DNA of 64,000 nt from Anaerolineae bacterium. GTDB taxonomy: Bacteria > Chloroflexota > Anaerolineae > Aggregatilineales > J027. A program made the translations under genes and the position numbers. The stretch spans positions 62,001-126,000 of the forward strand of contig WBUL01000010.1 in NCBI GenBank assembly GCA_008933735.1, read 5' to 3'. The stretch's first letter is position 1; every line of letters starts with the position of its first letter. Positions 60,082 to 64,000 of the stretch are shown here, piece by piece. Under the pieces are notes generated by a model. It saw only the letters and a program-made list of their open reading frames with translations. It was not told the DNA's origin and searched no databases.

Positions 60082-60576
60082 ATGAAATGTCCGCACTGCG
60101 GCGCAGTAGGTGAATCCTACGTTATCGATACAGCCCCGGACGCTCAGGGAGGCACGCGGCGGCGACGCGAATGTCACTGCTGCGGCAAGCGTTTTAATAC
60201 GGTTGAACGCCCAATTGTAGTGACTCCATTAGTGGTCAAAAGCAACGGCGAACGTGAGGAATTTGACCGGGACAAAGTCATTCGGGGAATCCGCCTGGCC
60301 TGTGCCAAGCGCCCTGTTTCTTCGGCAGAAATTAACCGCCTGGTTGAGCGCATCGAAACCCAGGTTCGTGCACTGGGTCAGGATGAGGTTCCAAGCCGCG
60401 TAGTTGGAGACATGGTCGTACAGGGTATTAAGGAACTTGACCCGATCGCGTACATCCGGTATGCCATCGTTTACCTCGGCCTGGACAATCTTGAAAGTGT
60501 CCGGGCAGAAACAGACAAGCTGCTTCACGAGCAGCAGCAGCAGCGCGAACAGCGCAACACTGCCGTCGAACCATAA
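60082..60576 (+). CDS. nrdR: Transcriptional repressor NrdR
   Basis: MKCPHCGAVGESYVIDTAPDAQGGTRRRRECHCCGKRFNTVERP...ATP-cone region. Confidence 0.96.
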   Translation: MKCPHCGAVGESYVIDTAPDAQGGTRRRRECHCCGKRFNTVERPIVVTPLVVKSNGEREEFDRDKVIRGIRLACAKRPVSSAEINRLVERIETQVRALGQDEVPSRVVGDMVVQGIKELDPIAYIRYAIVYLGLDNLESVRAETDKLLHEQQQQREQRNTAVEP

Positions 60577-60656
60577 CGGCACATCTCTAAGCGAATAAAT
60601 TGATCTCCCCTGAGTGCAAGGTCTCAGAGGGTATGTTTAGTGTTCACAATTTTACA

Positions 60657-63600
60657 ATGAGCAAAGGACGCATAATGGTCGCAACGGTGAATGAAAATAA
60701 GGAGTTCAAAAAAGTCCCCCTGCCCCAGGACTTGCAGCGCGAAATCGCACTTACAGACAACGCCCGCACGGTGCTGAGAAAACGCTACATCCGCAAAAAT
60801 GAGGATGGGTCGCCCGCAGAAACCGAAGAGGAGATGTTCTGGCGTGTCGCCTATCACATCGCACTGGCGGATAAAGAACTCGGCAACACCGATGAAGTTG
60901 TCGAACATTGGGCGCGGAAATACTATGATTTGCTGACGACGCTCCGCTTTTTCCCCAACAGCCCTACGTTTACGGGCGCGGGGACGCCGTTGGGCCAGCT
61001 AGCCGCATGTTTTGTGCTCCCAATAGAAGACGACATGGGGCGCGACCAGGACGGAATTTTCCAGACACTTCGTAATGCCGCACTGATTCAGCAAACAGGA
61101 GGTGGCAACGGCTTTGCCTTCAGCCGTCTGCGACCACGTGGCGCGATTGTGAAGTCATCAAACGGGGCAGCAACTGGGCCGGTAGGCTTCCTCCGCGTTT
61201 ACGACCAGGCATTTGGTGAGATCGCGCAGGGAGGAAGCCGACGGGGGGCGAATATGGCTGTACTCCGTGTGGATCATCCAGACATTCGGGATTTTATCAA
61301 GTGCAAAGCGGTGGAAGGCGCCATTGAAAACTTCAATATCAGCGTCGGCATCACGGACGCTTTCATGAAAGCCGTTGAGGAAGATACCACCTACGATCTC
61401 ATCAACCCACAAGATGGCTCTGTCTGGGAAACCGTTCGAGCCCGCGAAATTTTCGATATGATTGTCGAATATGCTCACCACAACGGCGAACCCGGTGTTC
61501 TGTTCCTTGATACGGCGAACAAAGAAAACCCTGTCCCTCATTTGTATGAACTCGAAAGCACAAACCCCTGTGTAACAGGGGATACACTTGTTGCCACCCC
61601 CTCAGGCTGGAAACGAGCCGACTCCTTTACAGAAGGCGACGAAATTTGCACTGTTTTAGGGGTAGGCAAGGTCAATACGATTGAAGTTCATGAAGCTGTG
61701 CCAGTCTATGACGTGTCTTTGTCTGATGGTGGCAAAATTCGGGTGACAGCCGCTCACCAATTTCACGTGAGGAATTCCCGTACCCAGTTTTTTGAACCCC
61801 GTCGTCTGGATGAAATTCAACAAGGGGATTGGGTACGGGTTTTTGAAACCGCCATGCCTAACAACGCGGTATTACAGGGCAATGTAGAGTTACCGGATCG
61901 TGATTACGGCTTTCTGGTAGGGGTACTCATTGGAGATGGATGTTATACGCCGCGTGCATTATCCAAAAATGGGGTTCGCCTCAGCACGCACGCCGATGAA
62001 GAAGCATGGAATAAAATCCTTGAACAGGCATTCACGAAAATTGGGATGCATGAATTTTATACCTATGTAAATAAAGGCAGCCGCACAATGATGATCGACC
62101 CCAAACCGGGTCGTGTTATTGCTGCCTGGGTGCGCTCCTTACCTCTTGAGCCTGCAAGAGGCCCTGAAAAAACCATTCCTGAGTGTTACCTTAATAGCAA
62201 CCGTGAATTCCTAACAGGTTTGATTGATGGTTTGTTTAGCACAGACGGAAGTATTGATCTGTCATCTGATCATCCTCTGATCCGTTTTCATACATCCAGC
62301 GAGAATCTTGCAGCACAAATCCGACGCATCCTGTTGATGTTTGGTATTCACGGACGGATTCATAAATCCGTTCGTGCAAGACACACGATTAATGGCCGTA
62401 TCATCCGTTATGACCGACCCAAATATGATGTCATTATCGCCGGCGACAGTTTTGGTCGTTTCTTCCGCCAAATCCGGCTCAGCCACCCTCAAAAACAGTA
62501 TCGGCTGGAAGAAGCAGCCTTGCGGTGTAATTTTACAGGCGGGAACTGGGCTGCTCAGGTCACAAAAATTGAGCCAGCAGGAATCGCAAAAGTATATGAC
62601 CTCTACGAGCCACGAAGCGACACATGGATTACCGATGGATATGTAAGCGTAGGATGTGGTGAACAGTTTCTAGGGCCTTATGAAAACTGCTGTCTTGGCA
62701 GTGTGAATCTGGCGCAACACTACACCGACGATGGGCATGTAGACTGGGAAAAACTGCGCGAAACGGTCGAACTTTCGACCCGATTCCTAGACCATGTAGT
62801 AACGGCCAATTCCTATGTGCCCGCCGTGCCTCAGTTGAAAGAAGCGGCTGACCGTGTACGCCGTATCGGACTGGGCATCATGGGGCTGGGCGATTTGATG
62901 TACGCGGTAGGTGTACGCTACGGCTCAAAGCAAGGACAGGAATTTGCCAGCCAGGTGATGGAATTTGTACGCTACCACAGCATGAAAACCAGCATTGCAC
63001 TGGCCAAGGAATACGGCCCCTTCCCCGCCATTGAAGGCAGTCGTTACGATACAAAAGACCTGAAATGGACGGTCCCGCAGCCCCTGGTTCCTCATGTCAC
63101 TGACTGGGAACGCCCGAAGCTGGACTGGAAAAAAATCGAGCGCGATCTTAAGAAACATGGCATTCGCAACGGCGCACAGACAACCGTCGCGCCAACGGGC
63201 ACAATCTCTACTGTCAGCGGATGCGAAGGCTACGGATGCGAGCCTGTGTTTGCGCTGGCCTATATCCGCTACATGGTAAACAACGCAGGGAACAGTGACG
63301 ACCGCATCCCGCTGCAATATACCAGCCCGCTGTTTGAAAAAGCGCTGCGGCAGGCAAATCTCTCTGAGGAAGAAATCAAAGCAATTGTAGCAAAGGTCAA
63401 TCTCAGCGGTACCTGCCAGGATATTCCCGATGTGCCGGAAGACATCCGCAATACCTTTGTTGTGGCAAACGACATCACCGCTGAAGAGCACATCTGGATG
63501 CAGGCAGCTATGCAAGCGTGGGTTGACAATGCCATTTCAAAAACCTGTAACTTTCCATCAACTGCCTCCGAGGAGGATGTTGCAAAAGCTTACTTACTCG

Positions 63601-64000
63601 GCTGGAAGTTAGGCTGCAAGGGGTTGACCGTTTATGTCACAGGAAGCCGTGAGAAAGTCGTGCTGGAAACCAAAGAAACTCTGGACAAAAAGCAGCAAAA
63701 AGAGCAGGGGCAGATTCTTACCGAACAGCCTAAACTGGAACAGACACGGATGTTCAATGAGGATAAAAAACCCCGCCCACGCCATCTGATCGGGAAAACC
63801 TATCGGGTAGAAACCCCCGCCGGCACTACTTATGTCACCATCAACGAAAATGGCTCAGGCCCGGGTCATCCTTTTGAGGTTTTCATTCACACGGGCAAAG
63901 TCGGCTCCGAAGTTATGGCAATTGCCGAGGCGACAGGGCGCCTGGTGTCCTATCTGCTGCGCCTGGTGTCGCCAGTTAGCCCAAACAAGCGCCTGCAAGA
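60657..64000 (+). CDS. nrdJ: Class II (adenosylcobalamin-dependent) ribonucleotide reductase with in-frame intein, partial at right edge
   Basis: Manual translation [51 protein letters not shown]...[23 protein letters not shown]...[17 protein letters not shown]...ESTNP[intein][23 protein letters not shown]...[24 protein letters not shown]... Open to window end, so absent from the ORF track. Confidence 0.95.
61569..62654 (+). mobile_element. LAGLIDADG-type intein in nrdJ (362 aa)
   Basis: Block [21 protein letters not shown]; block [10 protein letters not shown] (TxxH); LAGLIDADG-like [10 protein letters not shown] (61911) and [15 protein letters not shown]; block [22 protein letters not shown]; flanking exteins rejoin to the canonical [21 protein letters not shown]. 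Confidence 0.93.

Follow-up and report, generated by a model that had tools for sequence, protein, structure and literature searches.

The NrdJ-type ribonucleotide reductase (RNR) encoded in the 64 000-nucleotide stretch of an Anaerolineae genome analysed here (the window) is interrupted by an intein whose last residue is Gly, and which belongs to a lineage of Chloroflexota inteins inserted at the same site and sharing this unusual end. Comparison across the lineage suggests that the Gly-ended intein is very probably active and splices, and that its C-terminal junction is probably resolved without cyclization of Asn, Gln or Asp, by a chemistry not yet described.

The nrdJ open reading frame (60600-63998, forward strand) runs beyond the end of the window and matches the profiles of both the RNR barrel (PF02867, 1e-129) and the B12-dependent enzymes (TIGR02504, 9e-195), so that the host protein is NrdJ, the adenosylcobalamin-dependent class II RNR. 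A gene for an NrdR-like regulator (60082-60576) lies immediately upstream on the same strand. The intein, of 362 residues from Cys1 to Gly362 and made of HINT and LAGLIDADG parts, is inserted in frame (61569-62654) between an N-extein that ends in ELESTNP (60600-61568, the start codon being approximate) and a C-extein delimited by comparison with empty sites (62655-63998, extending past the window). Its reading frame is open end to end, up to the tail D-G-Y-V-S-V-G, which is followed by C-G-E-Q. With a slash for each splice junction, the insertion reads STNP/C...YVSVG/CGEQ and falls at the catalytic-cysteine site of NrdJ: the Cys in position +1 of the C-extein aligns with that of the NPCGE motif, the catalytic Cys of RNRs.

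The sequence-only reading that drew attention to this intein had placed its ends exactly, at Cys1 (codon TGT, 61569-61571), the N-terminal splicing nucleophile, and at Gly362 (GGA, 62652-62654, followed by TGT GGT GAA CAG). It was equally correct in reporting a Val-Gly end (62649-62654) with no Asn nearby, the last one being N326, 36 residues ahead of the C-terminal end, and in describing as intact Cys1, the block B TxxH (T60-A-A-H63, 61746-61757, with the B:7 Thr and the B:10 His) and both LAGLIDADG motifs (10 residues at 61911-61940 and 14 residues at 62208-62249). The endonuclease is recognized by LAGLIDADG_3 (PF14528, 1e-15), which also supports the second motif, while Intein_splicing (PF14890, 1e-6) remains below its cut-off. 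The same genome contains, by profile, two further inteins, L088 (G000:C29:38418) and L092 (G000:C24:84515), both with a normal VHN/S end and, judging by eye from their C-exteins, probably hosted by DNA polymerase III alpha and a gyrase subunit.

The position of the junctions does not depend on the intein itself. In intein-less relatives (L061, L062, L064 and others) STNP/CGEQ is uninterrupted, and two close relatives from the window's own family, L079 and L080, carry canonical VVHN/CGEQ inteins at the identical site. Since the empty sites and the same-site HN-ended inteins agree, the splice junctions are fixed, and a misplaced junction, including one elsewhere with an Asn before a nucleophile as the earlier reading had contemplated, is ruled out. 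The same comparison bears on the idea that another residue cyclizes, for example that at position 356 before Gly357, in which case the junction would lie elsewhere or the YVSRG tail would be removed afterwards. Residue 356 is Asp, Glu or Asn, and Asn-Gly and Asp-Gly are prone to cyclize; however, most members have Glu there, followed by Gly, which is no nucleophile, and the GYVSRG hexapeptide is absent from intein-less relatives, so that this explanation is given hardly any weight.

The Gly end is shared by a family. Five relatives of 66-74% identity, all from Chloroflexota, were found in GTDB contigs, 5/5 ending in GYVSRG/CGEQ, and further members came from searches of whole genomes (400 from the phylum, 396 from the class); a search of the class of a distant member, G129, gave no additional Gly-ended inteins. 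In total, 14 distinct Gly-ended inteins with their C-termini read are found at the NrdJ site, all in Chloroflexota and from about 10 families; 13 are full-length, and the fourteenth (G419) was assembled from two contigs (L045/L055 and L054), over which its nrdJ is apparently one gene. The sequence-only reading had proposed a search for inteins ending in VG/CGEQ: relatives with the Gly end do exist, yet 13 of the 14 inteins end in SRG/CGEQ, and VG (in SVG/CGEQ) is peculiar to the window. Among 13 distinct inteins the terminal codon is GGC in five, GGA in four, GGT in three and GGG in one; all four Gly codons being in use, Gly has been retained through many synonymous changes. Thus GGA is not an error for an Asn codon, and sequencing error or a single decayed allele is ruled out by the family together with the variety of its codons.

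The Gly-ended clade is under strong purifying selection, as judged from its sequences: where synonymous sites are unsaturated, to which the reading of dN/dS was confined as most pairs are saturated, the ratio is about 0.13 in the Hint C block, the slowest-evolving part, 0.14 in the other Hint block and 0.17 in the endonuclease. Two copies may be losing their endonuclease, the first LAGLIDADG motif being SDG in L063, a partial and apparently decaying copy, and GEG in L006. The nrdJ genes of L006, L008, L025, L027 and L054 contain at least two inteins, the additional ones being ordinary HN-ended inteins next to the Gly-ended one. A viral or plasmid origin was considered and set aside: viral contigs, phages and plasmids contained no close relative, the phage and plasmid matches listed being below 30% identity.

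That the intein splices is argued for by the RNR complement of its hosts, surveyed with PF02867 for class I and II large subunits and PF13597 for class III (NrdD). Apart from the nrdJ that carries the intein, no PF02867 gene occurs in G000, G028, G400, G401, G402, G403, G428, G438, G493 and G739, and no PF13597/NrdD gene was found in any of these ten genomes. At least seven are at or above 90% completeness: G028 (99%), G428 (99%), G400/G517 (90%), G401/G575 (98%), G402/G539 (100%), G493 (92%) and G739 (94%), the values for G400, G401 and G402 being those of G517, G575 and G539, which have identical inteins and the same contig numbers. Completeness is lower in G000 (81.5%) and G438 (81%), and G403 has no such figure; as the hosts are mostly metagenome-assembled genomes, a second RNR could be overlooked in some. 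A second RNR is present in G276 and G129, and probably in G404. A cell can do without RNR only by importing deoxynucleosides, which appears unlikely for these free-living organisms with genomes of 3-6 Mb. Since the +1 Cys takes the place of the catalytic Cys in the alignment, unspliced NrdJ should be inactive; where it is the sole RNR, the intein therefore very probably splices.

This evidence also bears on the three options left by the sequence-only reading, namely an unusual splicing route, a domain that only cleaves and a defective intein. The last, a non-splicing intein or a sequencing error in a dispensable RNR, would account for the break with the Asn/Gln/Asp rule and would fit the few copies decayed in other parts (the SDG and GEG motifs mentioned above) and the second RNR of two or three hosts, but it is largely refuted, and now seems very improbable, in the light of a conserved clade under purifying selection that occupies the sole RNR of at least seven near-complete genomes. 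Cleavage without ligation, in which both the N- and C-terminal bonds are cut and two NrdJ fragments reassemble into a working enzyme, is in itself unlikely though less remote: side reactions of this kind are expected once Asn cyclization is gone, and B-type BIL domains are reported to cut C-terminally by an atypical reaction (PMC7765530). However, the break would adjoin the catalytic Cys of what is, in most hosts, the sole RNR, neither the +1 Cys nor either of the junctions has changed, and the C-terminal cut would still require an Asn-independent route. An unusual splicing route is thus the option that stands best.

What such a route may consist of is suggested by the residues that are kept and replaced. 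Cys1, T60, H63, D344 (block F:4, 62598-62600) and the +1 Cys are kept in the Gly-ended inteins, the first four being invariant in 26/26 inteins compared. All three residues of C-terminal cleavage are replaced: the terminal Asn by Gly, the penultimate His by Arg in the relatives and Val in the window, and the block F His by Asp351 (62619-62621, located by same-site comparison and alignment to Mxe GyrA). Asp351 is found in 13/13 Gly-ended inteins, whereas that position is Leu or Ile in an Asp-ended sister clade and His in the Asn- and Gln-ended inteins of this site. Other Hint residues both invariant in and specific to the 13 are W14, D24, L30, Q64, H66, R90 and T323; His66 (61764-61766) is Lys or Leu in sister inteins, and Tyr in the partial copy L063. 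The family, the change of the block F His to an invariant Asp and the sister clade all go beyond the earlier reading.

The identical NrdJ site hosts inteins with four different ends. Besides the Gly-ended ones there are Asp-ended (L010-L013, L046, L047), Gln-ended (L015-L017, L083) and Asn-ended inteins (L014, L018-L020, L068, L079, L080). The Asp-ended group ends in S[LF]D/CGEQ, without the penultimate or block F His, and is apparently undescribed; the Gln-ended L015, L016, L017 and L083 end in AQ, HQ or KQ and are close to Asn-ended inteins, the terminal residue having changed repeatedly within a single insertion site. In a tree built without the last two residues, with a hand-set rooting that depends on long branches, 13 Gly-ended inteins group as a single clade with support of 95/97; its sister is the Asp clade (100/98), and the Asn- and Gln-ended inteins lie outside. 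The two sisters share the insertion site, the TWIT motif (DTWIT in the window, with Trp353 at 62625-62627) and the loss of both C-terminal His residues, which were either lost before the clades split or lost in both. As Asp (GAY) becomes Gly (GGY) by one base change, the terminal Gly may have arisen from Asp.

An AlphaFold model of the intein, obtained from the 26 same-site inteins, has a pLDDT of 84.7, confidence being low directly after the C-terminal junction. Searched with Foldseek against the PDB, it matches the endonuclease-bearing inteins TliVMA (E 7e-19), PI-PfuI and PI-SceI, and a HINT fold is accordingly predicted. With phmmer, the intein alone had no match in the PDB; the nearest solved sequence match to its N-terminal Hint part is a class 3 intein.

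Among known inteins, the window intein is closest in its features to class 1. It is an in-frame insertion with a precise empty site in homologues, and it has Cys1, the block B TxxH and the Cys+1 of CGEQ; in place of the Asn, Gln or Asp of class 1 it has Gly, as do 14/14 clade members with the C-terminus read. With Asn-ended class 1 inteins (Mxe GyrA, PI-SceI VMA) it shares the HINT fold, Cys1, block B Thr and His, block F Asp and the +1 Cys and, with PI-SceI VMA, an inserted LAGLIDADG endonuclease, but it is devoid of their block F His, penultimate His and terminal Asn. The atypical members of class 1 with a Gln or Asp end (Pab and Pho PolII, CIV RNR), like the Asp-ended NrdJ inteins, differ in that their terminal side chains can cyclize, whereas Gly cannot. 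Class 2 is rejected, as it needs Ala at position 1. Class 3 (MchDnaB1, MsmDnaB) is suggested by the closest N-terminal Hint sequence, and offers a precedent for protease-like bond breaking in the HINT fold; however, the window intein has Cys1, it lacks the WCT signature and F:4 Cys (F65, D344 and S360 being found, with Phe65 for the class 3 block B Trp), and class 3 retains the terminal Asn that is missing here. B-type BIL and hedgehog Hint domains likewise combine a HINT fold with the absence of a C-terminal Asn, but the intein-type +1 nucleophile, the endonuclease and an insertion point that lies in the conserved active site of an enzyme set the window intein apart; a BIL domain is rejected on the retained Cys+1 and the location at the NrdJ catalytic Cys.

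The reading favoured on balance, with moderate confidence, is that of an active, mobile, class-1-like lineage of Chloroflexota NrdJ inteins that would dispense with Asn cyclization and carry out C-terminal acyl transfer at Gly362-Cys+1. The first two steps would be as in class 1, with the N-terminal thioester made by Cys1. The third cannot be a side-chain cyclization and would be replaced by acyl transfer at Gly362-Cys+1, proposed because Gly-Cys bonds, like His-Cys, are reported to undergo an N-to-S acyl shift to the thioester even as internal native-peptide bonds (PMC11284063); in peptides this occurs in acid with added thiol, and in an intein it would need catalysis. In one route, Cys+1 would attack the preceding Gly carbonyl, setting free its own alpha-amine, which would then accept the N-extein from the Cys1 thioester. 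Alternatively, the usual branched thioester would form first and the freed Cys1 would then attack Gly362-Cys+1. By either route Gly362 would end on a thiol, from which hydrolysis would yield a linear intein, and transfer to the Cys1 amine a head-to-tail cyclic one, neither involving a succinimide. The block F His is held to promote step 3 of splicing (PMC8175363); here, acid/base help might come from the invariant Asp351, and possibly His66, in place of that residue and the penultimate His. An enzyme-free chemical counterpart of the resolution of the branched intermediate is known, but it proceeds via Asn cyclization (PMC10804359).

Given that no cis replacement for Asn is obvious, the Gly362-Cys+1 bond of the branched intermediate could instead be cut by a helper acting in trans or by a host protease. 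The penultimate residue, however, is not constant (Arg or Val), and the Gly-ended intein occurs sporadically across families and beside ordinary HN-ended inteins in the same proteins, so that such help seems improbable. Acyl transfer within the intein itself must be set against the behaviour of ordinary inteins, in which mutation of the terminal Asn to a non-cyclizing residue blocks C-terminal cleavage. That the lineage represents a new mechanistic class, with Gly-Cys acyl transfer, no side-chain cyclization and possibly release of a head-to-tail cyclic intein, is advanced tentatively, at rather less than even likelihood.

Reviews give Asn, Gln, Asp and Glu as the only intein ends (PMC4031507; PMC7664689), and neither a Gly-ended intein nor Chloroflexota NrdJ inteins were found in the open-access literature, although InBase or subscription papers may mention them. 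The Gly end thus appears to be new among inteins, and would define a new mechanistic class if the chemistry is confirmed. A traceless intein free of succinimide chemistry would, if the proposal is true, also be a useful tool. The Asn, Gln, Asp and Gly ends found at one site offer a ready evolutionary series, and a conserved Gly-ended lineage in an essential, usually sole, enzyme makes it possible to test directly whether the HINT fold can splice without cyclization.
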